Made by a program: the position numbers and the translations under genes
The notes under the pieces: model-generated
Databases searched by the model: none
What the model was told of the DNA's origin: nothing
Seen by the model: only the letters and a program-made list of their open reading frames with translations
DNA from: a virus
Reading direction: 5' to 3' (one strand)
IMG/VR virus record: IMGVR_UViG_3300050029_000517
Coordinates: 1 to 29,541 of that record
Length of the DNA stretch: 29,541 nucleotides
Shown here: piece by piece, positions 13,242 through 29,541 of the stretch
How positions within the stretch are numbered: position 1 is the stretch's first letter
Layout of the letters: each line of letters begins with the position of its first letter

Positions 13242-13893
13242 GTACGCGAAAGTTGCCGGCGCCGGGCGCGTCCTCACGCATCCGGATTCCGTGAAAGGTT
13301 TAACTCCCAAGTTAAATTGGATCTTCGACAACGTCCCGGACCGCGAAGCGATCGTCTTCGTCGACGACGACATCGCGAGCCTGCAGCGTTGCTTCACCGA
13401 GCCAGGCGAAGAGAGCACGATCCGCGATCCGCAGCTCATCGAGGCGATCATCCGCGCGACATTCATTCTCGCGCGCGACGTCGGCGCGTTCTACTTCGGC
13501 TGGGAAGCAAGCAACGGCGCGCTGCGTTACTACACCGGGTTGAAGCCGATCATGCTTACCGGCTACATCAACGGCTGCGCGATGGGATTCCGCACCGGCC
13601 ACGGCTTGCGTTTCGATCCGCGCATCGTCGCGAAGAACGATTTCGACATCGCGGCGATGAACGCCTACCGGCATCGGATCTGTTTGAAAAATATCCGGTA
13701 CACTTTCTGCCAGCGCGAGACCTTCAAAGGCAAAGGTGGCCAGGCTGCGTTTCGCACCTCGCACACCGAGAAGAACGACGTCGCGTTACTCCGGAAGAAA
13801 TGGGGCGACGTCTTCAACTTCGGCGGCCACTCCGGAACGCGGAAGCGCGACTACGCCGGCGTGCAGAAAATAAGTTTGAACCTGCCGTTCTGA
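13141..13893 (+). CDS. TET-associated-type glycosyltransferase (TAGT-like), DNA base glycosylation candidate
   Basis: A 250-residue protein, GTG start at 13141. The N-terminus MKIVIPSMSRATTMTTHRLL begins a Rossmann-type GT-A fold. EAIVFVDDDIASLQR (about 69-83) carries the DDD metal and sugar-nucleotide motif. The middle has YTGLKPIMLTGYINGCAMGF, and the end has KNDFDIAAMNAYRHRI and FRTSHTEKNDVALLRKKWGD. This order matches phage glycosyltransferases described alongside TET/JBP dioxygenases and ParB-domain proteins in modified-DNA phages. The expected reaction is transfer of a sugar to a hydroxymethylated base. No TET/JBP oxygenase or hydroxymethylase is seen in the window, so the acceptor is unknown. 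The neighbouring ParB-domain gene supports the link. Confidence 0.72.
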   Translation: MKIVIPSMSRATTMTTHRLLPSAVVCVPASQRAEYAKVAGAGRVLTHPDSVKGLTPKLNWIFDNVPDREAIVFVDDDIASLQRCFTEPGEESTIRDPQLIEAIIRATFILARDVGAFYFGWEASNGALRYYTGLKPIMLTGYINGCAMGFRTGHGLRFDPRIVAKNDFDIAAMNAYRHRICLKNIRYTFCQRETFKGKGGQAAFRTSHTEKNDVALLRKKWGDVFNFGGHSGTRKRDYAGVQKISLNLPF

Positions 13894-16762: not shown

Positions 16763-17527
16763 GTGAAGCTCACCGCGGACGATCTGCAACGTCTCCATAC
16801 CAAGCAGGTCGCTAACATCATCCGCAAGCTGGGCGAGGGGAAAACCATTACCTCGCGCGAGCAAAAGATTCTCGACGAAGAACAAACCCGTGGCGAATCG
16901 ACTGCAGCCGGCACGGCTGCCACTACAGCTTTCGTTCAGAATTGGGATGAGCTCGCGGATGCCATTCCGATCGATCGGCGGACGCTCCAGAATTTTCGCG
17001 ATCACGAAGCAGCGCTGATCGAGGCGAACAAAAAGGATCTGATCCGGTCCGACGGCCGCAAGTGCGTCGTCGCCTGGCGCGCGCTTCTCAACGAGTGCGG
17101 CGTGAAAGGCCGCGGCGCGAACAACACCGATCCGCACATGCCCGACGTGCGCGACATGCAGTTGCGCGAATGGAAATTCAAACTCGATAAGTCCGAATTC
17201 GCGCTCCAGAAAGAAAAAGACCTGGTCCTGCCGCGGACCGAGTTCGAAGCTGCGCTCAGTGTCACGCTTTCGAAATTCGTCGCGGCGCTCAATGCGTTGC
17301 CCGGCCGCGGGGCCGGCAAGCTGCTCCCGCGCGCGCGCGCCGCCTTGGTGGCCGCGTTGAAAAAAGCGTTGCCGCCAAAAACGTTCGAGCGCGTCGACGC
17401 CGCGCTCTCGAAAGATTTCGCGATCGACTTTGCCGAGATCGAGGAAACGCTCCAGAACGAAGTCGAGCTGGTGAAACGCACGCTCGAAACCTGCGACTAC
17501 CTCAAGCCGGCCGAGAACCTGGAGTAG
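16763..17527 (+). CDS. Phage terminase small subunit (Nu1-like)
   Basis: A 254-residue protein, GTG start. A winged-helix-like DNA-binding segment lies at about 56-105 (NWDELADAIPIDRRTLQNFR, then KKDLIRSDGRKCVVAWRALL), comparable to lambda Nu1, in which the recognition helix is followed by a wing and a K-W-region. The part from about 128 (RDMQLREWKFKLDKSEFALQ) is the coiled-coil and self-association region, followed by a conserved NALPGRG-type stretch. Small terminase recognises the packaging site and hands DNA to the large subunit. The first 40 residues (LHTKQVANIIRKLGEGKTIT) are extra. Position directly upstream of the large subunit supports the call. Confidence 0.8.
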   Translation: MKLTADDLQRLHTKQVANIIRKLGEGKTITSREQKILDEEQTRGESTAAGTAATTAFVQNWDELADAIPIDRRTLQNFRDHEAALIEANKKDLIRSDGRKCVVAWRALLNECGVKGRGANNTDPHMPDVRDMQLREWKFKLDKSEFALQKEKDLVLPRTEFEAALSVTLSKFVAALNALPGRGAGKLLPRARAALVAALKKALPPKTFERVDAALSKDFAIDFAEIEETLQNEVELVKRTLETCDYLKPAENLE

Positions 17528-17699
17528 CTAGCGGCACCGAGTGGCATACAGCCTGAAAGCCTGGCATTCGAATCCAAGGGCGCATGTCGTCTGGGCTAAC
17601 AACACATTCTTTAATCGAATCAACCTCCCAGAGTTTTTCTTGTAGAAGGAATTGGCCGCCGAGCGGCGGTCGTTCAATCGTCGTAATAGTGCACTCCAT

Positions 17700-17721
17700 C
17701 GCTGACACGCCACCGTCAGCG
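17700..17721 (+). promoter_or_regulatory. Hairpin abutting the large-terminase start codon
   Basis: CGCTGAC (17700-17706) pairs with GTCAGCG (17715-17721) over an eight-base loop; the last base is the G of the GTG start codon. In mRNA this would partly hide the start and could limit terminase synthesis. The rest of the 193-base gap (17528-17699) contains no gene I can support and no good Shine-Dalgarno sequence. Confidence 0.4.
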
Positions 17722-19826
17722 TGTTCGGCCGCAAGTGCTACAACCTTTTCGTCTCGCTCATTCGCGCGACGCTGAAACCGCTCCCCACCCAGACCATTTG
17801 GGAATGGATCGATCGCAACGTCGTCGTGCCATTGATCGTCGGCAGCCGCTACCCGGGCGCGATCGACACCGGGCACATGCCGCAATGGCGCGGCCTCCTG
17901 GAGAAATACGCCGATCGCCGCGTTCACTTCTTCACCCTCTGCAAATCCGCGCGGTGCGGCGGCACATTATTTTTCGGGATCTGTCTGGTCCTGGAAAAAA
18001 TCGCGCGATGGCCCGGGCCGATCGGCTGGATGGATCCCACCGCGAAAACCGGGAAGCGCGTCAGCCGCCAGGAGATCGAGCCTTACCTGCTCGCGTGCGA
18101 ACCGGTCAGCACGCTGGCCATTCTCAGCAAGACCACGTGGACCGTGCTCGAGAAGATATTCAAGAACTGCACCTTCTCGATAGTCGGCGCCGGTTCCATG
18201 AACGATCTCGGCGGCCGGCAATGGGAGCTCGTCATCATCAACGAGCAGGACCGGATCCCGAACCGTTGCGCGGACATGGCGCCGCCGAGCGAAGAAGCGA
18301 AAGCGCGCACGAGCCAGTTCGAGGACACGCGCAAGATCGTGCGCAACTCCACTCCCACGCGCGAGAGCGCGCTCACCTGGGGCGAGTTCCTCGCCGGCAG
18401 CCAGGAACATTGCTACGTGCCGTGTCCGGAATGTTTCGGGTACCAGCGGCTCGCCTTCTTCAAGGAATCCGGCGACATCGAGAAATGGATGCGCGTCGAC
18501 GGCGACGATCCGATTCTGATCGGTCACGAAATTAAGAGCGCGACGCGGCATGGCATCCCGTTGCCGGCCGACTCGGCTCGCAGCGAATTAAAAATCATTC
18601 CCGATCCCGACCGGCTCGGGAAATTCCTCGTCCTCGGAATCCCGCCCACCGCGCGCATTTGGTGGCCATCGGATCTGCGCCACAAAAAAAGCAAAGTCTG
18701 GGACGTCGACCTCGTCGCCGCGAATGCGCGTTTCGAGTGCGCCTTTTGCAGCGCAAAAATCCGCCCGGAACAATTGCCCTGGATGAACGATCGCTATGCC
18801 TGGCGCTCGCATAATCCCACCGCGCCGCGCGATCACGTCAGCGCGCATCTCTCCGCGCTTTACTCGCCGTTCCAGAGCTGCGGCGCCATCGCGAAAGAAT
18901 ATCTCCTCGCCTGCGGCAGCATCCTGAAGCTCCACGCCTTTTGGAATCTCATCCTAGGTCTGCCTTTCATCAGTCTGCCCACGAAGCTGAACAAGAAAAC
19001 GCTCGAGCTCGTCCAGCTCGCCAGCCCGAAGTACGAGCGGCAATATCCCGAGAACCTCGAAGTCGAGCTCACGCTGCCCGCGCGCCCGGTAGTTCTCACC
19101 ATGCAGGCCGACGTCCAGCAGACCGAGTTCTGGTGGTGCGTCCGCGCGTTGATGGTCGATGGCGCGCGTTACGTGCTCGCCTGGGGCCACTGCGGCAGCT
19201 TCGCCGAGCTCGACGCCATTTCGAATCGCGTTTGGAAATTCGATCATGGCGCCGGCGACGACGTCACGGGCCCGATCCCACCCGAGATGCGGTTCGAAGA
19301 ATTCACCTGCTTCATTAACGCGATCGACACCGGCTACAAAGCGAAGCGGCAAGGCGGCGTTTACGAATTCCTCCACGACCAGGGCGGCCGTTGGCAGGGC
19401 GTGCGCGGCGGCAATTACTCCGCGCTCGGAAAAGAAAAACCGATCACGGAAACCACCGTCACCTTCAACTACAAAGGGCAAGGCGAAGTCGACGTGCCCG
19501 TGATTCAGTTCAACGATTTCATTCTCAAAGAGCACCTCTACCGCTTCGTGTTGAAAGAACGCCGGCAACCGCCGCTCTATCTTCCGATCGCGCTCGACGA
19601 GCATTTCATCACGCAGACCACGAGCGAGCATTTGGCGAAGCGCAAGATGGCCGATGGCCGGAACGAAGACGTCTGGCAGATCAGCGATAACACCGAGCCG
19701 CATTTGGGCGACGTGCTTAAGTATGGCGAAGTGCTCAGCTTCGTCCTGGAGCCGGCCGTGCTTCAGCGCTTCCGTATGAAACACGACGCGCAGCGAGCGG
19801 CGCTGATGGAGAAGCTCGCGGCCTAA
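17721..19826 (+). CDS. Phage terminase large subunit (GpA family)
   Basis: A 701-residue packaging motor and nuclease. The ATPase half has a Walker A-like CKSARCGGT (74-82; lambda gpA has KSARVGYS, so the lack of a classical GKT is normal). Walker B-like ELVIINEQDRIP lies at 169-180, with NE where many motors have DE, and a coupling motif STPT at 210-213. VPCPECFGYQ (about 234-243) and a later CAFCSAKI form the zinc-binding pairs of this family. The nuclease half begins near TMQADVQQTEFWWC, with later acidic residues near FINAIDTGYKAKRQGG. Start GTG 17721 gives a normal family length. The stop overlaps the stop of the convergent reverse-strand gene. The Asn in the Walker B-like site deserves comparison with homologues. 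Confidence 0.92.
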   Translation: MFGRKCYNLFVSLIRATLKPLPTQTIWEWIDRNVVVPLIVGSRYPGAIDTGHMPQWRGLLEKYADRRVHFFTLCKSARCGGTLFFGICLVLEKIARWPGPIGWMDPTAKTGKRVSRQEIEPYLLACEPVSTLAILSKTTWTVLEKIFKNCTFSIVGAGSMNDLGGRQWELVIINEQDRIPNRCADMAPPSEEAKARTSQFEDTRKIVRNSTPTRESALTWGEFLAGSQEHCYVPCPECFGYQRLAFFKESGDIEKWMRVDGDDPILIGHEIKSATRHGIPLPADSARSELKIIPDPDRLGKFLVLGIPPTARIWWPSDLRHKKSKVWDVDLVAANARFECAFCSAKIRPEQLPWMNDRYAWRSHNPTAPRDHVSAHLSALYSPFQSCGAIAKEYLLACGSILKLHAFWNLILGLPFISLPTKLNKKTLELVQLASPKYERQYPENLEVELTLPARPVVLTMQADVQQTEFWWCVRALMVDGARYVLAWGHCGSFAELDAISNRVWKFDHGAGDDVTGPIPPEMRFEEFTCFINAIDTGYKAKRQGGVYEFLHDQGGRWQGVRGGNYSALGKEKPITETTVTFNYKGQGEVDVPVIQFNDFILKEHLYRFVLKERRQPPLYLPIALDEHFITQTTSEHLAKRKMADGRNEDVWQISDNTEPHLGDVLKYGEVLSFVLEPAVLQRFRMKHDAQRAALMEKLAA

Positions 19827-20407
19827 CGATTCACCAATGCGATGCCTCCCCGGGTCTTCCGTCCAATCGAAATCTTGTCGTGCCTCGTCGCATACCGCTC
19901 CCCGTCGAATGTATGAAAAGAACTATGGTAGATCGGCGGCGGCCTTGTGTCCGGACCGTAGTGAATGTCCATGCACAGGATATCGAAACGCGTCCCATCG
20001 TTGCGGCGCAATCGTCCTTCCGGATGTTCGATCTCGCGCAGGTCCGCTTCCATCTGCACGCCAGTTGAAAGCGTGCACATCGGCTTTGGCCGTGGGCGCG
20101 ATTGCATTCCCATTCCGCGACAGATGTCTCTCAGCAGCGCGTTGTGAAATTCCAAGAAGGCGGTGGACGCGGGCGATGGGACGTGCTGGATCCGCATGAT
20201 CTCTTCACGATCGCGCACCGCTTGCAGTTGCGGTGCGAACCGCGCTTCGTCGAGCGAGCGCTTACAGCACGGCCGCGTTCGGTAATTCCTGGCGACGCGA
20301 TAATCGCGCCCGCAACCGCTGCATTCGAATCCGCAGTAACCGCCCTGGCGCGCAGCCGTCGCCATCTGGATCGTGTCGAAGAAATGTCCCCGCGGCATCG
20401 AATGCAA
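19823..20407 (-). CDS. Reverse-strand cysteine-rich protein, candidate moron
   Basis: A 194-residue protein convergent with the large terminase; its TAG stop overlaps the terminase TAA. Residues 23-48 hold GFECSGCGRDYRVARNYRTR and PCCKRSLDEARF, a probable zinc-binding knuckle. The central part is helical and the C-terminus has FDILCMDIHYGPD and SFHTFDGERYATRHDKI. It reads as a real protein, while the frames opposite look like noise. It is the only reverse gene among the packaging genes and is bordered by an 8-base inverted repeat on its start side, so it is a candidate late-acquired gene expressed in the lysogen. No family recognised. The start could also be 20398. Confidence 0.55.
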   Translation of the reverse strand: MHSMPRGHFFDTIQMATAARQGGYCGFECSGCGRDYRVARNYRTRPCCKRSLDEARFAPQLQAVRDREEIMRIQHVPSPASTAFLEFHNALLRDICRGMGMQSRPRPKPMCTLSTGVQMEADLREIEHPEGRLRRNDGTRFDILCMDIHYGPDTRPPPIYHSSFHTFDGERYATRHDKISIGRKTRGGIALVNR

Positions 20408-20437
20408 CTATGCAACGCATCGCGCATAATTGCATAG
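20408..20437. promoter_or_regulatory. Inverted repeat at the reverse gene's start
   Basis: CTATGCAA (20408-20415) and TTGCATAG (20430-20437) are perfect inverted copies 14 bases apart, ending one base before the ATG of the reverse-strand gene. Spacing near two helical turns suits a dimeric repressor. The gap 20438-20604 holds this site and an AATCKGM heptamer array, and no forward gene. Confidence 0.4.
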
Positions 20438-20548
20438 AACGAATAATCGCCGCGCGTTGACTCGCGCCGGAGAGCGTTACACAAACTGCGCGCAGGCCGG
20501 ACCTCTTCGGAGACCGGCCTGTGTCGTGTACGGGCGCGCGCCTCTTCA

Positions 20549-20582
20549 ATCGGCAATCTGAAATCGGCAATCTGAAATCGGA
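20549..20582. repeat. Heptamer tandem repeat (AATCGGC/AATCTGA)
   Basis: Two copies of the 14-base unit AATCGGCAATCTGA plus AATCGG. The 14-mer is itself two related heptamers, AATCGGC and AATCTGA. The same heptamer family returns at 27966-27993. It lies between the reverse gene and the next forward gene. Confidence 0.85.
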
Positions 20583-20604
20583 TTGACACCGCTTCGCGGG
20601 TGAA

Positions 20605-20886
20605 ATGATCCCAGCCGGTTACAAAGAAGCTCTCATCACGTACGCGGACGCGAAGGGCGCCATGGGTCTCCAGGCGCTGAGCGACGAGTTCGACACCCTC
20701 TTCGATCTCATCAACGCGCGGCGCGGCAAGGAAATGATCAGCTCTGCTGTCAACGGCAAAGCCTTCGGTTTCGCCGTCCAGATGTCGATCGAGGAAAAGT
20801 TTTCCGTCCTCGGCCAGGCCATCCGTGAAATCAACGGCGACCGCGTCACCTGCACCTACCCCGACTTCTCCAGTCTCCAGCGATGA
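20605..20886 (+). CDS. Hypothetical head-region small protein
   Basis: A 93-residue protein with a long helical start (AGYKEALITYADAKGAMGLQ) and a beta-containing end (INGDRVTCTYPDFSSLQR). Its place between terminase and portal is where lambda has gpW, a small head-tail joining protein; similarity to gpW is not clear from the sequence. There is no Shine-Dalgarno match that decides the start; ATG 20605 is the first in frame. Confidence 0.65.
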   Translation: MIPAGYKEALITYADAKGAMGLQALSDEFDTLFDLINARRGKEMISSAVNGKAFGFAVQMSIEEKFSVLGQAIREINGDRVTCTYPDFSSLQR

Positions 20887-20905
20887 ATCGAACAATCTTC
20901 TTCTC

Positions 20906-20940
20906 GTTAGGCGTTGGGCGTTGGGCGTTAGGCGTTAGGC
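20906..20940. repeat. Heptamer tandem repeat GTTRGGC x5
   Basis: Five contiguous units: GTTAGGC, GTTGGGC, GTTGGGC, GTTAGGC, GTTAGGC, then GTTT. It begins 19 bases after the stop of the small head gene. The unit equals the core of the octamer CGTTAGGC that is spread through the window. Confidence 0.95.
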
Positions 20941-20947
20941 GTTTCTT

Positions 20948-20972
20948 CGGCGGTCATAGACCGCCGCTACAG
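20948..20972. repeat. Dispersed hairpin repeat ending in CTACAG
   Basis: CGGCGGTC-ATA-GACCGCCG is a perfect 8-base stem with a 3-base loop, followed directly by CTACAG. The 14-mer GACCGCCGCTACAG (20959-20972) recurs at 4342-4355 and, inverted, at 23664-23677. It sits 11 bases before the portal start codon, where it could affect portal translation. Confidence 0.85.
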
Positions 20973-20983
20973 GGGAGCGCGTT

Positions 20984-22528
20984 GTGAACGTAAAAGTTTC
21001 CTACGCTCCGGCCCTCGCGCTCGCGGATCCAAAATTCCTCGCCGCCGATAGCGTTCCCGCGCCCGACGCCGCGGCTGCCATCGGCTCGAGCTTCTACGAC
21101 GCCGCGATTAATTCGCCGTCGCGTTCCACCTTTCCCGCGTTCCCGCTCACGTCCCGTTTCGAGATCACGCGCTACACGCGCATCCAGATTTTGAAAAAGG
21201 TCCGCGCGCTCGAAGCGAACCTCGGCCTCATCTCGCGCATGAAAGGCCAGGTCCGCAAATACGCCGTCGGCCGCGGCATCTTCCCGCAGCCCCAGACCAA
21301 TCATCCGGAATGGAACGACGAGTCCGCGATGAAGTTCGACGATTGGGCTAACAACCGTTTCGTCTGCGACACCGCCGGCGCCATGACTTTCTGGGAACGC
21401 CAGGGCTTTCACGCCGAGACGTTCTTCGCCGAAGCCGAGAGTTTCGATGCGCTCGTTTCCAGCTCCTTCTCCGGCGCACCGCAGCTCCAGCTTTTTGATA
21501 ACAGTGAAGTCGGCAATCCCTACTACGGCGATATCCGACGCGACTTCCAGGACGGCGTCCGGACGAACGAACAAAACCGGCCGCTCGAGTATCTCGTCAC
21601 CACGCTTTCGCCCGTCGCTTACGGCCTCGGCCAGATCAACACCCGCGGCATCGACGCGAACGACATGATCCATCTCGTGCGCCGCAAGCGCGCAAACCAG
21701 CTCCGCGGCATTTCCGCGTTCGCGCCCGGGATCAATTGCGCGATCGACCGGATGGATCTGCGCGCCCTCACCACCGCGGCCGCGAAATTGCACGAAGCCC
21801 TCGGCGTCGTCGTCAAAAAGAAATCCGGCGAAGCCGGCCGGACCGGGATCAGCGACAAGATCAAGAAAACGCTCGATGGCGACGGCAAGGTCACGCAGGT
21901 CAGCGAAAAATTTATCCAGGGCGCCGCCATTCAATATCTGGGGATCGATGAAGATATCGAGATCCTGGCTTCCGAGCGCCCCTCGCAAAATCTTCTCGCG
22001 TTCGGCGACGAGCTGGTCCGCGACATTTGCACCGGCACCGGCCTGACGTTCGAGATCGTCTGGAACCTTACCTCTCTTGGTGGCGCCACCGCGCGCATCG
22101 CCCTGGCGGACGCGCAATGGTTCTTCGACGGCATCCAGGATTCCATCAACGAAATGTTCAACCAGCGCGTCTGGGTTTGGTGGTGCGCCTCGATGATGAA
22201 GAGCGGCCAGCTTTCGCAGTGCAACGATCCGCGCTGGTGGGCGTGCCATTGGCAGGGCCCGCCGAAACTTACCGCCGACGCCGGCCGCACCATGAAGGGC
22301 GAGATCGAAGCGCTCGGCAGCGGCCTCAATAGCTGGGCCGATTACTACAGCCGCGCCCAGGGCCGGTTCTGGAAAGACCCGATCAAGCAGCGGATCGAAG
22401 AGCTGCGCTGGGCCATGGCGTTTTGCCAGAAGCAAACGCCGCACGTCCCGTTCGAATATCTCTACTCACTCAAACCCGGTACCGCCGTGGCTTCCGCCCC
22501 AGGCTCCGGCAACGACGCCGCGAATTAA
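20984..22528 (+). CDS. Phage portal protein (lambda gpB family)
   Basis: A 514-residue portal, the dodecameric ring through which DNA enters the head. GTG start at 20984. Typical lambda-family features: a helical start with ITRYTRIQILKKVRALEANL, GLISRMKGQVRKYAVGRGI (about 80-98), the charged insertion NPYYGDIRRDFQDGVR, MIHLVRRKRANQLRGISAFA in the stem-like segment, and the crown region RPSQNLLAFGDELVRDICTG then LTSLGGATARIALADAQWFF. The C-terminus is Ala/Gly-rich and disordered. The preceding 24 bases carry a stable hairpin repeat. A 496-codon open frame opposite it is a composition artefact. Confidence 0.92.
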   Translation: MNVKVSYAPALALADPKFLAADSVPAPDAAAAIGSSFYDAAINSPSRSTFPAFPLTSRFEITRYTRIQILKKVRALEANLGLISRMKGQVRKYAVGRGIFPQPQTNHPEWNDESAMKFDDWANNRFVCDTAGAMTFWERQGFHAETFFAEAESFDALVSSSFSGAPQLQLFDNSEVGNPYYGDIRRDFQDGVRTNEQNRPLEYLVTTLSPVAYGLGQINTRGIDANDMIHLVRRKRANQLRGISAFAPGINCAIDRMDLRALTTAAAKLHEALGVVVKKKSGEAGRTGISDKIKKTLDGDGKVTQVSEKFIQGAAIQYLGIDEDIEILASERPSQNLLAFGDELVRDICTGTGLTFEIVWNLTSLGGATARIALADAQWFFDGIQDSINEMFNQRVWVWWCASMMKSGQLSQCNDPRWWACHWQGPPKLTADAGRTMKGEIEALGSGLNSWADYYSRAQGRFWKDPIKQRIEELRWAMAFCQKQTPHVPFEYLYSLKPGTAVASAPGSGNDAAN

Positions 22529-22529
22529 A

Positions 22530-22766
22530 ATGAACGCAACCGGAAGTCAGAGGACAGAGGACAGAGGACAGTCGCTCGCGCATTCGCACGCTGAAGTTCT
22601 GCGCACGCGTGAGCGGGCCCGGCGCGCGATTGCGCACCTCGACGTCGCGCGCGAGCTCGAGATCCCGGCGATGGTCGTACTCGCCCTCACACATTGCGAG
22701 GTAGCCGTCCCGCGCTTCCGCGCCGCGCTCGCGAAACGCAGCTTCGACCTCCGCAATCTGGCCTAA
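22530..22766 (+). CDS. Hypothetical small head-region protein with repeat-derived N-terminus
   Basis: A 78-residue protein one base after the portal stop. The first 14 codons are encoded by an ACAGAGG heptamer repeat; the rest (VLRTRERARRAIAHLDVARE, LEIPAMVVLALTHCEVAVPR) is helical and looks like a real coding sequence. It ends in Ala-TAA within GCCTAACG. The original start was probably inside or just after the repeat. It precedes the protease gene by six bases. No family recognised. Confidence 0.55.
   Translation: MNATGSQRTEDRGQSLAHSHAEVLRTRERARRAIAHLDVARELEIPAMVVLALTHCEVAVPRFRAALAKRSFDLRNLA
22540..22571. repeat. Heptamer tandem repeat TCAGAGG/ACAGAGG
   Basis: TCAGAGG, ACAGAGG, ACAGAGG, ACAG in direct succession after CCGGAAG. 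Related sequences lie at 3925-3949 and, reversed, at 27441-27468, where the 14-base unit CCTCCGACCTCTGT is repeated twice. It lies within the coding region above, near its start. Confidence 0.9.
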
Positions 22767-22772
22767 CGACTT

Positions 22773-23657
22773 ATGAGATACCCACGACTTTTCACGAAAC
22801 TTTTCTGCGAACCGGTCATGATCACCGAGACCGCGTTCTCCGGTCTCGCCACGGCCTTGATCGGCCGCATGAATTCCCCGCGCGCCGCCGCCACTCCCGA
22901 CCAGTTGCCTGACGGCGATTACCTCGCCTGGCGCAAACGGATGCAGGCCACCGACAGCCAGGCCCGGCTCGACGACGTCTACTCTCAGCGCGGCAACACC
23001 GCCATCATCACGCTCGACGGCGTCATCGATCGGCATCTCTCCAGTTTCGAAATGGAATGCTATGGCGGCTGCGATCTCGCCGATATCGATCGCGCTATCG
23101 CTCTCGCCGCTTCGGATCCGACTATCCGCAATGTCGTCCTCGAATTGCGTTCGCCCGGCGGCAGCGTCATCGGCGTCGCCGAAACTGCGCAGCAAGTCGC
23201 GAATCTGGGACGCACCAAGAATGTTTACGCGTTCACCGACTCAGTCTGCGCCAGCGCCGCCTACTACATCGCGAGCCAGGCCCACCAAATTTTCTCGACC
23301 AGCAGCGCCGTCGTCGGATCGATCGGCGTCTATTGCGCCATCCTGGATGCGAGCGGCTGGTACGAAGCGCAAAATCTGAAAGTGAATTTCTTCAAGGACG
23401 GCGACTTCAAGGGCGCCGGGCTCGATTTCAAACCGTTGAGCGACGCCGAAGCCACGATGTTCCAGGACCGCGTCCTCCAGCTCGGCGCCATGTTCCGCGA
23501 TGCCGTCACTTCCATGCGCCCACAAGTTTCGCTCGCGACCATGCAGGGCCAGAGCTTTGTCGGCTGCGACACGAGCGGCAACGGACTCGATGCACTCCAG
23601 GTTGGGCTCGTCGACGGCGTCGTTCTTTCCCTCGAGGAATTGCTCGCGCGGATCTGA
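22773..23657 (+). CDS. S49-family capsid maturation protease (lambda gpC/SppA-like)
   Basis: A 294-residue ClpP/SppA-fold protease. AIITLDGVIDRHL (78-90), LELRSPGGSVIGVAETAQQV (124-143) and VCASAAYYIASQA (158-170) give the nucleophile Ser161 in the S-A-x-Y-x-I-A-S context. Lys213 in FKDGDFKGAGLDFK is the general base, and LSDAEATMFQDRVLQLGAMF follows. S49 enzymes use a Ser-Lys dyad, as here. In phages it degrades scaffold and trims head proteins during prohead maturation. The gene order portal, protease, scaffold, capsid is as in lambda. No signal peptide is apparent, so it acts in the cytoplasm. Confidence 0.92.
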   Translation: MRYPRLFTKLFCEPVMITETAFSGLATALIGRMNSPRAAATPDQLPDGDYLAWRKRMQATDSQARLDDVYSQRGNTAIITLDGVIDRHLSSFEMECYGGCDLADIDRAIALAASDPTIRNVVLELRSPGGSVIGVAETAQQVANLGRTKNVYAFTDSVCASAAYYIASQAHQIFSTSSAVVGSIGVYCAILDASGWYEAQNLKVNFFKDGDFKGAGLDFKPLSDAEATMFQDRVLQLGAMFRDAVTSMRPQVSLATMQGQSFVGCDTSGNGLDALQVGLVDGVVLSLEELLARI

Positions 23658-23663
23658 TTTCTT

Positions 23664-23727
23664 CTGTAGCGGCGGTCTATGACCGTCGACCGCAAAACGA
23701 TTCGGCGATGAGACATCGCCGCTACAG
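23664..23727. repeat. 64-base double-hairpin element with 11-base inverted ends
   Basis: The ends CTGTAGCGGCG (23664-23674) and CGCCGCTACAG (23717-23727) are perfect inverted copies. Inside are two smaller hairpins, CGGTC-TAT-GACCG and CGGCGATG-AGA-CATCGCCG. The left end contains the 14-mer seen at 20959-20972 in reverse. The layout resembles a paired REP or miniature element. It fills the gap between protease and scaffold genes. Confidence 0.85.
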
Positions 23728-23790
23728 TCATTTGCACTAAGCGAATAATTTCGTTTGACGCATAACGCGAACGGGCGTATTCGCAAAATC

Positions 23791-24402
23791 GTGGAAACAC
23801 CGCCGACTCATAAAGCGCAGCTCGAGGCGCTTTTCAAATCTCTCGGGAACGCCGCGGATTTCCCCGCCGCCTACGCCGCTCTCACCTCGCTCCAGGCCAC
23901 CGCCGCGAGCACGACAACCTTCGTGGCGGATCAGCAGGCCTTCTTCGAGCTGCTCGGCGCGAAAGACCAGGCCGGCGCGCTCAACGTCGTCACCCAATTG
24001 CAGAGCGATTGTAACGCTCTCTACAAATCTCTCGGCGCCACCGATATCGCCGGCGCCATCGCCACCGTCACCCAAATGCAGGCCGATCGCGACGCGATCT
24101 GGAAAGCGCTCGGCGCCACCGATCATGCCGGCGCAGTCGCCGCCGTCCCCGCGTTGAACGCCCGCGTCCTCGTGGCCGAAAACGCGCAGAAAGATTTCGA
24201 TGCCCGGCTCGAAGCCGGCATCAGTAAAGGCGTCATCGATCGCGCCGCCGCCGCGGGAATCACCGCGCCGATCGCGAAAGTGACCGCGCTTCCACTCGAC
24301 GCCGCTGCCGCCGCCGAGGCGCAAACGCCGCGCTCGCGTCTCGCCGCATCCATTAACGAGCAGATCGAAGGCTCACTCGGTTCCCGCATCGGCGCTTCGT
24401 AA
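23791..24402 (+). CDS. Probable capsid scaffold protein with internal repeats
   Basis: A 203-residue protein if begun at GTG 23791; an in-frame TTG at 23755 is possible but less likely. It consists largely of three or four imperfect repeats of about 30 residues. Readable units are FFELLGAKDQAGALNVVTQL, LYKSLGATDIAGAIATVTQM and IWKALGATDHAGAVAAVPAL, followed by a charged helix and an Ala-rich end (PRSRLAASINEQIEGSLGSR). Its position between protease and capsid protein, and its helical Ala-rich make-up, fit a scaffold like lambda Nu3, though the repeats are unusual. In lambda, Nu3 is made from within the protease gene; here the genes are separate. Start is uncertain. Confidence 0.65.
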   Translation: METPPTHKAQLEALFKSLGNAADFPAAYAALTSLQATAASTTTFVADQQAFFELLGAKDQAGALNVVTQLQSDCNALYKSLGATDIAGAIATVTQMQADRDAIWKALGATDHAGAVAAVPALNARVLVAENAQKDFDARLEAGISKGVIDRAAAAGITAPIAKVTALPLDAAAAAEAQTPRSRLAASINEQIEGSLGSRIGAS

Positions 24403-24437
24403 AAACACTGTCCATTCACCGCAGCTCAATCACGATT

Positions 24438-25565
24438 ATGAAAAAAGGTTTCGCTCTTTTTGCTCTGGCCATCTCGTTGTTCATCGGCGCGATCGCCGCC
24501 GCGCAAACCCATGACCCCGTCGTCGCGTTTGTTGCTGCAAATGCCGTCGCTTACGCCTACGTCGTTTCTTCGCGCGGTTATTCTTTCGGCGTCGTCGCGA
24601 ACGCGCCCGGGCAGCTCACCCTGCTCGATATCGCCATGCGCAACGGCCAGAACGTCGCCGCCATCGTCGAGGACGTCACCACCGTCGCGCCCGAGTTTTC
24701 CGTAGTTCCCGCCATCATTCGCGGTGGCACCAGTTACGACGTGCTGCGTCGCACCGGTTATCCCGCCGGAGGATTTCGCCAGGTCGGCGCGGGCGTTGCT
24801 CTCAACAAGAGCACCTGGGAACGCGAGACCAAACCGATGTACCTTTTCGATTGCCAGATGCTCATCGGCGAAGACATCGTCAAAGCGCAGACCGCCGAGA
24901 GCATGAGCACTGCCGGCGACGTCCTGGCTGATGAAGCGATCGCGGCCGTGCGCGGCAGCACCATCAACATCGGCTCCCAGATGTATTACGGCGCCAAGGC
25001 CGCGGCGAATGGGTTCTCCGGGCTCGCCACTCTTTTCAACGATGAGATCGACGCCGGCGGCACCTCGGCCACCACCAGCGTTTATCTCTGCTGGCTCGAT
25101 CCGAACCTCACCAATCCCCAGGGCGTGCACTTCGCCGTCGGCCTCGCCGGCGCGATGAACTTCGGCGACTGGATGAAACAGCAGGTCGATATGGGCGGCG
25201 GCAAGAAAGCCATGGCCTACGTGAACGGTTTCCTTTTTTATCTCGGGTTCGCCGCGGCTTCGGCGCTCTCCATCTGGCGCGTGCGCGGCGTGAGCATCGC
25301 TCATCCCTTCACCGACGCGCTCGGCGCGCAGTTGCTCGCGAAAGTCCCGATCGCGCGCCGGCAAAATCTCCGCTGGTTCATGAACAAGACCGCGGCCTTC
25401 ACTCTCCAGAGTTCGCGTTCGACTGTTTACACCGCGGTCCAGACTGGCGGCGGCGGGATCGGTGGCGGCGGCGTGTTTCCGCAGTTGCCCGATAGCTGCA
25501 TGAACATCCCGATCACCTGGACCGATTCACTGCTCGACACCGAGACCAGCGGGAACCTGGTGTAA
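24438..25565 (+). CDS. Major capsid protein with signal-peptide-like N-terminus
   Basis: A 375-residue protein. The capsid core begins near residue 60 (LTLLDIAMRNGQNVAAIVED). It contains VVPAIIRGGTSYDVLRRTGY, NKSTWERETKPMYLFDCQML, an Ala-rich helix region (AQTAESMSTAGDVLADEAIA) and GFSGLATLFNDEI, typical of phage major capsid proteins; HK97 fold is inferred. It is followed by a cement-like protein, an arrangement like Bbp17/Bbp16. The first 60 residues are extra. MKKGFALFALAISLFIGAIA followed by AAQT is a classic Sec signal peptide with an A-x-A cleavage site, which a cytoplasmically assembled capsid should not need. No Shine-Dalgarno is visible; a start at Met68 would cut off this region but also a conserved stretch. 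Confidence 0.85.
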   Translation: MKKGFALFALAISLFIGAIAAAQTHDPVVAFVAANAVAYAYVVSSRGYSFGVVANAPGQLTLLDIAMRNGQNVAAIVEDVTTVAPEFSVVPAIIRGGTSYDVLRRTGYPAGGFRQVGAGVALNKSTWERETKPMYLFDCQMLIGEDIVKAQTAESMSTAGDVLADEAIAAVRGSTINIGSQMYYGAKAAANGFSGLATLFNDEIDAGGTSATTSVYLCWLDPNLTNPQGVHFAVGLAGAMNFGDWMKQQVDMGGGKKAMAYVNGFLFYLGFAAASALSIWRVRGVSIAHPFTDALGAQLLAKVPIARRQNLRWFMNKTAAFTLQSSRSTVYTAVQTGGGGIGGGGVFPQLPDSCMNIPITWTDSLLDTETSGNLV

Positions 25566-25578
25566 CAAAAAAAAGCTT

Positions 25579-25613
25579 CAACCCAACAAGGGTTGATCCG
25601 GTGACAGCGGATC
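25579..25613 (+). promoter_or_regulatory. Two consecutive hairpins after the capsid gene
   Basis: CAACCC-AACAA-GGGTTG (25579-25595) and GATCCG-GTGACAG-CGGATC (25595-25613) sit in the 76-base gap between capsid and cement genes. There is no T-run after either, so they may stabilise the capsid mRNA 3' end or reduce read-through rather than terminate. The next gene has an AGGACAGAG ribosome site. Confidence 0.45.
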
Positions 25614-25641
25614 GACTCGAACCGAAAAAAGGACAGAGATC

Positions 25642-26049
25642 ATGCCGTTAAATATTCGCAGCCTCCAGGACGCAAACCTGATCGTCAGCATCGCGCTGCC
25701 CGCGGCGGCCGCTTCCGCATCCACCCCGGCGATCGATCTCGTCAGCAACACCGCCGGCCGCGTGCCGCGCCTCGAGCTTCTTCTCAGTGTTCCCGCCGTG
25801 CCCGCGCTCGTCGACGCGAAGACGATCATCCACACGATCGAAGACTCGGCCGATAACAGCAGCTTCGCGGCGGTGGCCGATCTTCCCACCGTCACTTCCA
25901 CCGGCGCCGGTGGCCTTGGCGCAGCCGCAGTCGCTCGCCAGTTCAAGCTGCCGATCGGGGTGCGCCGTTATCTGCGCGTTACCTCCGCCGTCCTCACGGC
26001 CGGTGGCGATAACACCGCCGTCAAGACCTCGCTCGGTCTCGTTTTTTAG
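25642..26049 (+). CDS. Capsid cement (decoration) protein, Bbp16-like
   Basis: A 135-residue beta-rich protein. Its central part ALVDAKTIIHTIEDSADNSS and the C-terminal VARQFKLPIGVRRYLRVTSA then LTAGGDNTAVKTSLGLVF match a phage family encoded directly after the capsid gene, of the Bbp16 cement type (similarity by memory). It would bind the capsid surface at threefold or similar positions. Start ATG 25642 has a fair Shine-Dalgarno (AAAGGACAGAG) seven bases upstream. Confidence 0.75.
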   Translation: MPLNIRSLQDANLIVSIALPAAAASASTPAIDLVSNTAGRVPRLELLLSVPAVPALVDAKTIIHTIEDSADNSSFAAVADLPTVTSTGAGGLGAAAVARQFKLPIGVRRYLRVTSAVLTAGGDNTAVKTSLGLVF

Positions 26050-26052
26050 CCG

Positions 26053-26286
26053 ATGGCCGCGCCCGCCGCCAGTAAAGCGGAGGGAATAAAAATTTCCTTC
26101 GTCGCAGTCCGCAAAGTCAGCGGCGAAGTCGAGCTCATGGCCGTGGGCGAAAGCTCCGATCCCGCGCTCGAGCTGCACGAAAAGTTGAAAAAGACCAAAG
26201 GCAAAGACGCCGATGGCAATCTTCTCTACACCGAGTGCGTTCTCTTCGTTAGGCCACGGTCGAATCGGAGGCTGAAATTTTCCTGA
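26053..26286 (+). CDS. Hypothetical structural-region protein
   Basis: A 77-residue protein, beta-rich in the first half (GIKISFVAVRKVSGEVELMA) with a helix and a Lys-rich stretch in the middle (ALELHEKLKKTKGKDADGNL). It starts three bases after the cement gene. Its TGA overlaps the next ATG (TGATG). The region CGTTAGGC occurs near its end. Not recognised; head-tail connector is possible. Confidence 0.65.
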   Translation: MAAPAASKAEGIKISFVAVRKVSGEVELMAVGESSDPALELHEKLKKTKGKDADGNLLYTECVLFVRPRSNRRLKFS

Positions 26287-26459
26287 TGCCAGACACCATC
26301 CAGATCGATCGAGAACAGACCGCCGAAGTTTTCGCGCAATGGTGGGCCGACTTCGAAGCGCATCCAGAAAACTTTGTGCCAGGGCCTGATCTGCCAGGAA
26401 AAGATTCCGCCGACCTCTTCCTCGAGTACGCCATCGCCAAAGGCGCAAAACAGTTATGA
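26286..26459 (+). CDS. Small acidic hypothetical protein
   Basis: A 57-residue protein starting MPDTIQIDREQTAEVFAQWW, with ADFEAHPENFVPGPDLPGKD in the middle and ADLFLEYAIAKGAKQL at the end. It is linked by a TGATG overlap upstream and an ATGA overlap to the Tad1-like gene downstream, so it is co-translated with it. Not recognised; it could be a partner of the Tad1-like protein. Confidence 0.6.
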   Translation: MPDTIQIDREQTAEVFAQWWADFEAHPENFVPGPDLPGKDSADLFLEYAIAKGAKQL

Positions 26460-26767
26460 AAGTCCTGGAGCCAGGTCACCGTTACGAAGTCGCGAACTTC
26501 GAGAACAAAGACGCGGCCGGCCAGGTCATTCAATTCATCGAGAAAGAGGCGATTGCTGGCAGCTCGCAGTTACGCACCGTCCACGACGGCACCACGAACG
26601 AGGAAGTTCTGCGCGTGCTCATCGATCGGCTTCGCTTTCTTGGCGCTAAACTCACCAGCCGCGAAAACAGCATCGCCGTCACGAAGCTCGAAGAAGCTTT
26701 GATGTGGCTTGAAAAACGCACCCGCGATCGCACCGCTCGCGGAGTGGAAGGAACACATTTCTCATGA
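26456..26767 (+). CDS. Acb2/Tad1-like protein, candidate cyclic-nucleotide sponge
   Basis: A 103-residue protein: MKVLEPGHRYEVANFENKDA, GQVIQFIEKEAIAG, TVHDGTTNEEVLRVLIDRLR, then SRENSIAVTKLEEALMWLEK and RTRDRTARGVEGTHFS. The beta-sheet start, TTNEEV helix, REN-x(3)-A-x-TKLEEALMWL helical hairpin and C-terminal GVEGT match a phage family I recall as Tad1 and its relatives; Acb2 shares the helical hairpin. Tad1 binds the Thoeris signal (cADPR isomers) and Acb2 the CBASS cyclic oligonucleotides, blocking host abortive defence. The ligand here cannot be told from sequence. The gene is in the late region with four-base overlaps on both sides, so expression would be late unless an earlier promoter exists. 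Confidence 0.72.
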   Translation: MKVLEPGHRYEVANFENKDAAGQVIQFIEKEAIAGSSQLRTVHDGTTNEEVLRVLIDRLRFLGAKLTSRENSIAVTKLEEALMWLEKRTRDRTARGVEGTHFS

Positions 26768-27000
26768 ATACGTTCGTCACCCAAATTCAGGCGCTCAACA
26801 AACAGATCGCCGATAACAAAGAGCGGATCTCTCTTCACCGGGAAGAGAACGTGCGCCTCACCGCGATGGCCGATCGCATGTTTTCCGTTCTCACGCCCGC
26901 CGAGAAAGCGGAGCTCGATCCGCCCGCTCCACCGCAACCGGAACCGGAAGGGAAAACAGGACAGGATTTACAAGATTCTCAGGATTCAAAATCGGGTTAA
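26764..27000 (+). CDS. Small coiled-coil protein with repeat-derived tail
   Basis: A 78-residue protein with a heptad-patterned helix (VTQIQALNKQIADNKERISL, then REENVRLTAMADRM). A Pro-rich segment (DPPAPPQPEPEG) follows, and a polar end encoded by an ACAGGATT repeat. The original C-terminus probably lay before that repeat. Overlaps the Tad1-like gene by four bases. Not recognised. Confidence 0.6.
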   Translation: MNTFVTQIQALNKQIADNKERISLHREENVRLTAMADRMFSVLTPAEKAELDPPAPPQPEPEGKTGQDLQDSQDSKSG

Positions 27001-27016
27001 TCCAGTTAATCCTGTC
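26960..27016. repeat. Inverted repeat GACAGGATT / AATCCTGTC
   Basis: GACAGGATT (26960-26968) and AATCCTGTC (27008-27016) are perfect inverted copies; a third, direct CAGGATT lies between them (about 26979-26986). Related sequences of the form CAGGATT...AATCCTGT are common in intergenic DNA of several bacterial phyla, so this probably belongs to a widespread class. It spans the end of the coiled-coil gene. Confidence 0.8.
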
Positions 27017-27047
27017 TAAGCCACTGATTGACTTTCGCGTCTAGCCC

Positions 27048-27428
27048 ATGACGCCAAACCAAATCGTAATTCTCGTCGATGAATCCGCCGCTCTCGACCG
27101 ACGCATCAAAGCCGACACCGCGCGGCTCACCGAAATTTTGAAACCTCAGCTCGTGAAACTCTCTCCCGGCACCTACAACGGCACCGATGGTGCGAAAGCG
27201 CTGGTCATCCAGCCCGAGCCTGGCATCAGACCGAGTGCATCAGCGATCGATAGCGCCCGCGCGGTAGCCGGTCCGGAAGCGGCCCGGAGACTTTTCTCGC
27301 GCGTGATCGTGCGGAAAGCCATGAAGAGCTTCCGCGAAATCGCGCGCAACATCCTCACGCCGGCCAAAGCCGAAAAGGTCATCGCCCTCTGCGAAGTGGC
27401 GAGCAATCCGTACGTGATTCTCACGTGA
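27048..27428 (+). CDS. Hypothetical phage protein, helical
   Basis: A 126-residue protein. The N-terminus (QIVILVDESAALDRRIKADT) is helical and the centre is Pro/Gly-containing (KLSPGTYNGTDGAKALVIQP). The C-terminal half is basic and helical (EAARRLFSRVIVRKAMKSFR, LTPAKAEKVIALCEVASNPY). It overlaps the next gene by four bases (GTGA). Not recognised; the fold might be a small connector or DNA-binding protein. Confidence 0.65.
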   Translation: MTPNQIVILVDESAALDRRIKADTARLTEILKPQLVKLSPGTYNGTDGAKALVIQPEPGIRPSASAIDSARAVAGPEAARRLFSRVIVRKAMKSFREIARNILTPAKAEKVIALCEVASNPYVILT

Positions 27429-27598
27429 AGACTTCGCCGACCTCCGACCTCTGTCCTCCGACCTCTGTCTCTATCATCTGTCCGGACTGCCAGAACTACA
27501 TCACGCTGCCGCAGAATCATCGGTCTAGCTGCCCGCGCTGGCGCTTCATTGCTCCCCACTCGCCGCGCTCCACGTCCGTCATGCGAGATCTCCCATGA
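27425..27598 (+). CDS. Small protein with a zinc-knuckle and repeat-encoded N-terminus
   Basis: A 57-residue protein from GTG 27425 (GTGA overlap) to a TGA that overlaps the next ATG (ATGA at 27595-27598). The first 15 codons (SPTSDLCPPTSVS region) are encoded by the repeated 14-mer CCTCCGACCTCTGT. Then IICPDCQNYITLPQNHRSSC forms one CxxC plus a lone Cys, an incomplete zinc site. It is too short and repeat-rich to be certain, but the double overlap supports translation. Confidence 0.5.
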   Translation: MKTSPTSDLCPPTSVSIICPDCQNYITLPQNHRSSCPRWRFIAPHSPRSTSVMRDLP

Positions 27599-27987
27599 GC
27601 ACGGATAGTCCATGGATCCGGTGGTTTGGCTCGGTTCCCTTCATCGGTAAAGAAGTGGATTGCGGTGAACTTGGCCTTGGAATTGTGAACCGGTGGAAAT
27701 CTCAGGACCGCGAATACTATGTTCAATTCGCTTTCTCAAAATTTCGCGCGCGTTGCGGCACGCCATCATTCGGCGCCGGCTACTCGACAGGAATTCCATC
27801 GCACAAAGTCGTGCTGCCAGAATTCGGAGACCAAGGTAACCAACTCGTTCTCGAAGGCTGCGCGCTTCTTGCCGATGCCAGTCTTAAGCTGACTATCGGC
27901 AGCGAAACCATCGAGATCGATCGCACGTTACTTCTGCGCGCGCTGAACGTCTTCCTCCCCGATCCCAATCTGAAATCTTCAATCTGA
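27595..27987 (+). CDS. Hypothetical structural-region protein
   Basis: A 130-residue protein, beta-rich: WIRWFGSVPFIGKEVDCGEL, IVNRWKSQDREYYVQFAFSK, ALLADASLKLTIGSETIEID. The last five codons (PNLKSSI) are encoded by an AATCTGA heptamer repeat. Not recognised. Position before the two beta-domain genes suggests a tail or connector component. Confidence 0.65.
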   Translation: MSTDSPWIRWFGSVPFIGKEVDCGELGLGIVNRWKSQDREYYVQFAFSKFRARCGTPSFGAGYSTGIPSHKVVLPEFGDQGNQLVLEGCALLADASLKLTIGSETIEIDRTLLLRALNVFLPDPNLKSSI

Positions 27988-27993
27988 AATCTG
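27966..27993. repeat. Heptamer tandem repeat AATCTGA/AATCTTC/AATCTGC
   Basis: Four units AATCTGA, AATCTTC, AATCTGA, AATCTGC in a row, crossing the stop codon at 27985-27987 and ending just before ATG 27996. It belongs to the same AATCKGM family as the array at 20549-20582. Confidence 0.9.
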
Positions 27994-27995
27994 CA

Positions 27996-28598
27996 ATGGC
28001 TTCCGACTTCTCCGACCAGCTCCGCGCCGCCTGGCTCGAGTCGCGCCAGTTCCTCGATCCGGAACAAAAGATCACGCTCACCGCCGCGAACGGCCAGAAA
28101 GCTCTCGGCATCGCCACCTCCTTCGTCTCGAGCAAGGAATTGAAAGCCGCCAGTTACGCCGATAAAATTCCTGCCGCCATCGAGCTTCTACGCGAAGACT
28201 TCGCGCGCCTGGCTCTCGCCGATCGGAGCGATCTCACCGTCGCCGCTCGCACGCTCACCATCACCCACATCGGCGACGACCCGATCGATCCGTGCGTGCA
28301 GCTCACCGTCGTTCATCTCAGTCTCCAGGCGGCGGCCGTCGCCGCGGTCAGCGATGCCGGCAGCGTCGCGCTCAGCATCGGTCAAGACACCGTGCCGATC
28401 ACATTCGCGCTCACCGCACGCTTTCCGGATGCGAACTACGTCTTCGATTATCTCTACGTCGGCAACAAGATCGACGCGAACCCGCTCGCCATCGAGGTCG
28501 TGCCAGGCCCGCGGACCGCGCTCGGTTTCACCGCGCTGCTTGGCGGCGCTCCCGACACCGCGAACTATATCCTTTATTGGAAAGCGAAAACGCCGTGA
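27996..28598 (+). CDS. Two-domain tail-region protein with C-terminal beta domain
   Basis: A 200-residue protein. Residues 1-110 are mostly helical (SDQLRAAWLESRQFLDPEQK, then a helix-rich stretch). Residues about 125-200 form a beta-rich domain (DTVPITFALTARFPDANYVF, DYLYVGNKIDANPLAIEVVP, ALGFTALLGGAPDTANYILY). The same domain is repeated as the whole of the next gene. Such jelly-roll or Ig-like domains occur in baseplate and fibre-associated proteins. No family recognised by name. The start follows the AATCTGA repeat; a shorter start is not supported. Confidence 0.7.
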   Translation: MASDFSDQLRAAWLESRQFLDPEQKITLTAANGQKALGIATSFVSSKELKAASYADKIPAAIELLREDFARLALADRSDLTVAARTLTITHIGDDPIDPCVQLTVVHLSLQAAAVAAVSDAGSVALSIGQDTVPITFALTARFPDANYVFDYLYVGNKIDANPLAIEVVPGPRTALGFTALLGGAPDTANYILYWKAKTP

Positions 28599-28837
28599 GA
28601 AACCACGGCTACATCGGCCTTGCCATCGGCCAGGTGGAAGTGACGGTCCCGCTCGCCTTCTTCGAGCCGAGCGAAGATTTCACGTTCGATTATCTCTACG
28701 TCGAGAACCAGGTGGATCCGAATCCGCTCGCGATCGCCGTAGTGCCGGCGGCGCGGACAACCAAGAGCTTCGTCGTGAAGCTCGGCGCCGCGCCCGATAG
28801 CGCGAACTACGTCCTCAAATGGGCAATAGCATCATGA
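28595..28837 (+). CDS. Stand-alone copy of the beta-rich tail domain
   Basis: An 80-residue protein from GTG 28595 (GTGA overlap with the preceding stop). It is a paralogue of the previous gene's C-terminal domain: VTVPLAFFEPSEDFTFDYLY against ITFALTARFPDANYVFDYLY, and PNPLAIAVVPAARTTKSFVV against ANPLAIEVVPGPRTALGFTA. Conserved blocks include FDYLYV, NPLAI-x-VVP and APD-(S/T)-ANY. It probably arose by tandem duplication. Its stop overlaps the fibre gene's ATG by four bases. Confidence 0.75.
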   Translation: MRNHGYIGLAIGQVEVTVPLAFFEPSEDFTFDYLYVENQVDPNPLAIAVVPAARTTKSFVVKLGAAPDSANYVLKWAIAS

Positions 28838-29541
28838 AAAAACTTCTACTTTCCCGGCTCCGCCGTGGACGGGCTACGCCGTGGCGAGCTACTTTCCTCC
28901 GGCACGCCGTAGCCTTGTGCGTAGGCGGCTACTTTCTACTTTGCGCCGCCGCGTCGGCGCAGACCACCGGCGCTAAAACACCGATCCGCAACGGCGTCCT
29001 CCAGACCGATCTCGACGCGGCCGGCTTCAACTTCATCCACGTCGGCACGCTCAACGGCAACGCGATTGTCACGCCAACCGATCTCGCCGGCAAGCAGCCG
29101 CTCGATCCGGACCTCACTGCGCTCGCCGCGCTCATCACTGATGCTTTCGGCCGCGCCTTACTTACGAAGACTGACGCCGCCTCGATCCGCACCTACATCG
29201 GCGCGGGCACTTCGAGCTTTGATGGCGCGTTCGGCTCGCTCTCCGGAAAGCCCACTACGATCGCCGGCTACGGCATCCTCGATTTCAATTCATTAGGCGA
29301 CGCCCGCTGGTCGCTCCTGGCGCACACTCATAGCTTCGCCAGTCTCACCGGGACGCCGACGACGGTGGGCGGCTATGGCATCACGGACTTTAACAGCCTG
29401 GGCGACGCCCGCTGGTCACTTCTCGCGCATACGCACACCTTTGCCAGCCTCACGAGTAAGCCGACCACGATCGCCGGCTACGGCATCACCGATTTCAACT
29501 CGTTAGGCGACGCCCGCTGGCAGCCGCTCGATAGCGATCTC
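28834..29541 (+). CDS. Tail fibre protein, N-terminal part, with signal-peptide-like start (partial)
   Basis: The frame is open for 236 codons to the window edge. N-terminus MKKLLLSRLRRGRATPWRAT, then a hydrophobic stretch (HAVALCVGGYFLLCAAASAQ) ending in A-x-A, which looks like a Sec signal with a basic n-region. Downstream is LQTDLDAAGFNFIHVGTLNG, then fibre repeats of about 38 residues: SFASLTGTPTTVGGYGITDF, NSLGDARWSLLAHTH, repeated three times with small changes. The H-T-H-x-F-A-S-L-T-x-x-P-T-T-x-x-G-Y-G-I phrase is common in phage receptor-binding fibres, where it forms trimeric beta-helix or intertwined segments. The start contains a 90-base insert flanked by 9-base direct repeats. Receptor-binding tip lies outside the window. 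Confidence 0.8.
   Translation, partial: MKKLLLSRLRRGRATPWRATFLRHAVALCVGGYFLLCAAASAQTTGAKTPIRNGVLQTDLDAAGFNFIHVGTLNGNAIVTPTDLAGKQPLDPDLTALAALITDAFGRALLTKTDAASIRTYIGAGTSSFDGAFGSLSGKPTTIAGYGILDFNSLGDARWSLLAHTHSFASLTGTPTTVGGYGITDFNSLGDARWSLLAHTHTFASLTSKPTTIAGYGITDFNSLGDARWQPLDSDL
28853..28942. repeat. 90-base in-frame insert flanked by TTCTACTTT direct repeats
   Basis: TTCTACTTT occurs at 28844-28852 and again at 28934-28942. Between them is an imperfect palindrome, GGCTACGCCGTG (28872-28883) and CACGCCGTAGCC (28903-28914), with one mismatch. Insert plus one repeat copy is exactly 90 bases, 30 codons, so the fibre frame is kept. The layout resembles a small transposed element with a 9-base target duplication. 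It supplies most of the hydrophobic signal-like region. Confidence 0.65.

Follow-up and report, generated by a model that had tools for sequence, protein, structure and literature searches.

The window studied here spans 29,541 bases and is a complete virus record of IMG/VR. Its head-gene module has the order terminase (GpA), lambda-type portal, S49 protease, GP7-type capsid and Bbp16, followed by a block of small open reading frames that includes tad1 (Table 1). The tad1 reading frame starts with ATG, comprises 103 codons and is connected to the reading frames on both sides: Its start and its stop are each part of an ATGA overlap, the usual sign of translational coupling. A promoter-like site was looked for near tad1, and none was found. 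The preliminary description had regarded the acidic protein encoded upstream as a co-translated partner of the tad1 product. The overlap agrees with co-translation, but the role as a partner had to be given up: In a blastp comparison of all reading frames of the window with those of 119 other tad1 loci, no relative of the 57-residue protein was detected, and it is thus a neighbour of tad1 rather than a part of the system.

Table 1. Features of the window (positions refer to the window unless residues are indicated).
Feature	Position	Strand	Description and basis
Protein of 239 aa	2986-3705		Long (YA/SA)n repeat
ORF of 207 aa	10454-11077		Sensor histidine kinase-like by eye
ParB-like protein	12516-13241		phrog_9353, phrog_620
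TET-associated glycosyltransferase	13141-13893		PF20691 (43 bits), phrog_842
Major capsid protein	24438..25565	+	GP7 type; PF20911, phrog_212
Bbp16-type capsid protein gene	25642..26049	+	Upstream border of the block; PF21190 (33.9 bits)
Small-ORF block	26053..27987	+	Between head genes; ORFs 26053, 26286, 26456 (tad1), 26764, 27048, 27595
Acidic ORF of 57 aa	26286..26459	+	Overlaps the tad1 start (ATGA); translationally coupled neighbour
tad1	26456..26767	+	Predicted Tad1-family signal-sequestering protein of 103 aa; PF24729, phrog_2428, PDB matches, AlphaFold with Foldseek/VIA
tad1 product, predicted domains	residues 1-43; 48-65 and 69-94; 96-100		Beta-sheet; helical hairpin; conserved C-terminal tail G96-V-E-G-T100
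ORF of 78 aa	26764..27000	+	Overlaps the tad1 stop (ATGA); no family match
Imperfect palindrome	26960-27016		27-base arms
Tandem duplications of 14 bases	27441-27468 and 27966-27993		In or around the block

Genomic context of the small-ORF block

The block differs from its surroundings in base composition: The GC content at the third codon position (GC3) is 0.64 in the block, 0.79 in the neighbouring head genes (Fisher p 2e-13 for block versus head genes) and 0.74 in the early genes. Such a low-GC3 block of small reading frames within the head-gene module points to acquired cargo that is expressed late. In three prophage regions of Verrucomicrobiota, whose major capsid and Bbp16 genes are related to those of the window, Bbp16 is followed within about 80 bases by a reading frame that is dissimilar to tad1. 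In other phages, the neighbours of tad1 are unrelated to those in the window: The relative in Bacillus phage CM1 is located between SSB and UvsX, a second one (L024) adjoins RusA, and two more (L018 and L025) adjoin head-gene homologues. Since its neighbours are unrelated from phage to phage, tad1 seems to move independently of the structural genes and behaves as mobile cargo. A head gene that lies downstream of Bbp16 in one of the Verrucomicrobiota genomes, prophage G079, has no similarity to window ORF 27996, and the downstream border of the block is therefore drawn from composition only.

Just behind tad1 and the reading frame downstream of it, there is an imperfect palindrome (GACAGGATTTACAAGATTC...TTAATCCAGTTAATCCTGTC). 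Its 18-base core, AATCCNGTTAATCCTGTC, is present in seven copies in one genome (G014) and in a single copy in another of 59 genomes sampled from the Opitutus phylum, and the palindrome looks like a dispersed host repeat that was picked up together with the block. Two short tandem duplications were also noticed in this region.

Sequence relationships and predicted fold of the tad1 product

The sequence of the tad1 product matches the Tad1 family far beyond chance, be it in domain collections, among the proteins of the PDB or among viral relatives, of which IMG/VR contains at least 98. The Pfam family of the Acb2/Tad1 hairpin, PF24729, matches with 32.3 bits (gathering cut-off 27), and phrog_2428 matches residues 4-101 (4.6e-23). 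A phmmer search of the PDB with the single sequence gave CmTad1 as the best match (8kbb, 1.4e-11) and CbTad1 at about 7e-10 (7uav); with a profile made from 41 relatives, the values were 1.1e-29 for CmTad1 (chain residues 37-131) and about 1e-27 for CbTad1 (chain residues 29-124). The profile alignments start at residue 37 of CmTad1 and residue 29 of CbTad1 and reach the C-terminus; the homology therefore includes the N-terminal domain, and the significant similarity to the solved Tad1 proteins spans both this domain and the hairpin. Searches of NCBIfam and PADLOC gave no model that matches the tad1 product. The phrog_2428 family is listed with unknown function; its matches include all 41 aligned relatives, the canonical Tad1-like ones among them, and PHROG 2428 can thus be annotated as Tad1 family. 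The motifs that had initially drawn attention to the gene, NFEN, TTNEEVL, LIDRL, TKLEEALMWL and GVEGT, are all present in the translation in the order given by the preliminary description; only the spacing REN-x(3)-A has to be corrected, since the actual string RENSIAVTKLEEALMWL reads REN-x(2)-A-x-TKL.

As judged from the alignment, the tad1 product belongs to a sub-branch of short Tad1 proteins of about 100 amino acids. The alignment took in 23 distinct short relatives from IMG/VR, which have about 95-111 residues like the query, share 48-68% identity with it and in most cases have in their N-terminal part GHxYELxNFEN...QxIQFIEK...TxxDGTTNEEVL; for the canonical Tad1-like relatives (NHKY...FQxGPIKExGxNG), the identity is 32-44%. 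In a maximum-likelihood tree, a branch with support 99/93 has all short forms except L025 on the same side. Among the GTDB genomes, it is mainly those of Bacteroidota (Runella, Emticicia, Tenacibaculum and others) that contain the short form, and one Opitutus MAG (L091) carries a short relative with 67% identity. Four residues, G45, R58, R88 and R92, are invariant over the 41 members and are all kept in the tad1 product, and E70, T76, E79-W84, T89, R95, V97, E98 and G99 are nearly invariant. Near the end of helix 2 lie invariant arginines whose position, like that of the VEG tail, would fit a candidate ligand-contact region. The relative in the Opitutus MAG is encoded on a Verrucomicrobiota-binned contig of 239 kb (JANPZY010000003.1), where by eye SSB-like and DnaB-like genes surround it; this may be a large phage or prophage.

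AlphaFold2 was run on the 41-row alignment and gave a single-chain model with a pLDDT of 95.3 and a pTM of 0.81. In this model, five strands (residues 2-5, 9-12, 23-27, 29-32 and 38-43) precede the two helices, and this corresponds to the Tad1 pattern of an N-terminal antiparallel beta-sheet followed by two long C-terminal helices. The Foldseek comparison with Tad1 and Acb2 structures that had been proposed beforehand turned out in favour of a Tad1-like model: All 12 PDB matches with E<1e-3 are Tad1 chains (probability 1.00). In the VIA structural alignment, CbTad1 ranks first (Z 9.7, rmsd 2.5), and the Tad1 entries rank above unrelated helical hairpins (Z 7.6 and below). Both this Z score and the TM-score of 0.6-0.7 are modest, as expected given that CbTad1 and CmTad1 are 20-30 residues longer than the tad1 product, and since a Z score near 7 can reflect a common helical arrangement, the assignment to Tad1 rests on sequence and fold together.

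The gene had initially been called a Tad1/Acb2-like candidate. Of the two, sequence, profile and fold argue for Tad1, and the predicted N-terminal sheet argues against Acb2. The idea of an Acb2-type protein, i. e. a three-helix protein directed against CBASS only, could draw on the common Pfam family of the two hairpins and on the appearance of the Acb2 protein Vs.4 of T4 in the structural list (Z 6.4), but it is hardly tenable: Acb2 protomers are all-helical, with a short N-terminal helix and two antiparallel helices, whereas in the model the hairpin is preceded by five strands, Vs.4 is a weak structural match that aligns only with an rmsd of 7.7, and the significant sequence matches are Tad1 chains and phiKZ gp184 only. 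Thus, the protein is Tad1 proper, with a predicted beta-sheet domain that is absent from Acb2.

Among the known proteins, CbTad1 from a Clostridium botulinum prophage (PDB 7uav, 7uaw, 8smd, 8kbe-8kbh) has the fold in common over 98 of the 103 residues, at about 30% identity; in both proteins, the sheet is followed by the helical hairpin and this by the C-terminal tail. The tad1 product is about 20 residues shorter, with no counterpart to approximately the first 15 residues of CbTad1, and its GHxYELxNFEN...QFIEK...DGTTNEE stands where canonical Tad1 proteins have FQxG-P-I/V-KE...NG. CmTad1 (PDB 8kbb-8kbd), a chain of 132 residues, has a longer N-terminal part as well. The Tad1 proteins of the SPO1-like Bacillus phages SBSphiJ7 and SPG24 are also longer; here tblastn aligned the hairpin and the tail (residues 44-101, 52-54% identity), whereas the N-terminal half was left unaligned. 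Finally, gp184 (phiKZ Tad1), an injected virion protein of a jumbo phage with 230 residues, shares the hairpin and a part of the sheet (profile 7e-10, PDB 8y6v chain I) and is longer by about 150 residues on its N-terminal side.

Host group and its defence systems

Several observations support the host group well, and they bear out the earlier assignment to a Verrucomicrobia phage. First, the portal protein has matches with E<1e-20 in 14 of 241 genomes from the phylum of the Opitutus MAG (best match 43% over 474 residues, in G079), as compared to none in the phyla of betaproteobacterial, planctomycetal and Runella genomes (0/249, 0/246 and 0/247, i. e. 0/742 in total). Second, among isolated phages, Akkermansia phage Moulinsart has the best portal match (25%). 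Finally, G079 has homologues of the terminase, portal, S49 protease, capsid and Bbp16 in the same order as the window, and the tad1 relative with 67% identity in the Opitutus MAG points to this group as well. The phage is thus very probably one of Verrucomicrobiota, with the phylum label taken from the name 'Opitutus sp.' of the L091 genome. Terminase scans of IMG/VR and of the GTDB genomes detected no relatives, and megablast of positions 17000-29541 against phage records gave no match.

The presence of the gene had been taken to imply Thoeris or CBASS pressure on this host group, and of CBASS and SLOG-type Thoeris, it is the former for which such pressure is more readily made plausible in this phylum. 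The SMODS (CD-NTase) domain, which is also present in proteins other than CBASS cyclases, scores above the cut-off in 11 of the 241 genomes of the phylum. PADLOC identifies all four loci that were checked as CBASS cyclases (E 1e-101 to 1e-197), and at three of them a 2TM effector adjoins the cyclase, which makes CBASS an evident target. For SLOG-type Thoeris the outcome was different: STALD, the SLOG part of ThsA, gave two weak matches in the 241 genomes, one near a TIR-domain reading frame and the other in a short SLOG-like reading frame, and neither is convincing. This search detects Thoeris of the SLOG type, which looked rare in the phylum, and says nothing about the absence of Thoeris overall; Thoeris is a possible target.

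Proposed function and timing

On the basis of its homology to characterised Tad1 proteins, we consider it highly likely that the tad1 product is a Tad1-family sponge that counters a nucleotide-signalling defence of the Verrucomicrobiota host. Tad1 proteins act by sequestering signals (PMC12043709, PMC13282480). By analogy, the protein would assemble as a trimer of dimers, in which the pockets between the protomers bind gcADPR or cyclic dinucleotides and the trimer interfaces bind cyclic trinucleotides; the alarm signal would thus be taken away before the effector is activated. The phage would then evade the protection of its host, with CBASS as a target that is at least as likely as Thoeris and probably likelier. 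The position of the gene suggests that it is transcribed together with the head genes and that its product is probably made late. Such a role would not establish a new kind of system, but it would extend a known kind of counter-defence to Verrucomicrobiota, a phylum in which the immunity between phage and host is little studied. Moreover, the compact branch of about 100 residues (phrog_2428) could be tested for its bound signal.

It is conceivable that the protein does not act only late in infection, but is packaged in the virion and injected with the DNA to act at once. The gene is part of the head-gene module beside the major capsid and Bbp16 genes, two of its relatives also lie beside head-gene homologues, and gp184, a longer member of the family, has been validated as an injected virion protein (PMC10449902) that, according to a review, blocks both CBASS and Thoeris (PMC13282480). 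By analogy with gp184, virion carriage of the tad1 product is possible; however, it seems unlikely, since the large N-terminal extension of gp184 is absent from the 103-residue protein, no packaging signal was identified in it, other relatives (CM1, L024) are encoded among replication genes, and the low GC3 of the block points to cargo and not to an assembly gene. It is tempting to speculate that the short branch in general represents a virion-carried sponge of small temperate phages that is produced along with the head proteins, is packaged and, like gp184, is injected with the DNA. This idea, improbable as it is, would mean that the sponge absorbs the alarm signals of the next host right from the first minutes of an infection. 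Together with gp184 and the head-adjacent genes of two relatives, tad1 adds to the hints that the timing of some Tad1 proteins may follow that of the virion, or that the virion may carry them.

Even less probable is a head or assembly protein that has the Tad1 fold but binds no signal. The position of tad1 among head genes and the designation of homologues as 'putative structural protein' in some phage records are in line with such a role, but in one of these very records, that of CM1, the gene lies among replication genes, tad1 has no match in the syntenic prophages whose capsid genes are related, and the unrelated neighbours of tad1 in other phages again speak against it.

Besides the candidate Tad1-family sponge, some other proteins encoded in the window were noticed. 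The 239-residue protein is encoded by a low-complexity stretch that is open in several frames, and it has no Pfam match. By eye, the 207-residue reading frame with its DTGKGM motif looks like the ATPase part of a sensor histidine kinase, and it has no PADLOC match; such a protein is unusual for a small phage. Finally, the gene of the ParB-like protein overlaps that of the TET-associated glycosyltransferase. This pair suggests that the phage may carry glycosylated modified bases as a further means of counter-defence.
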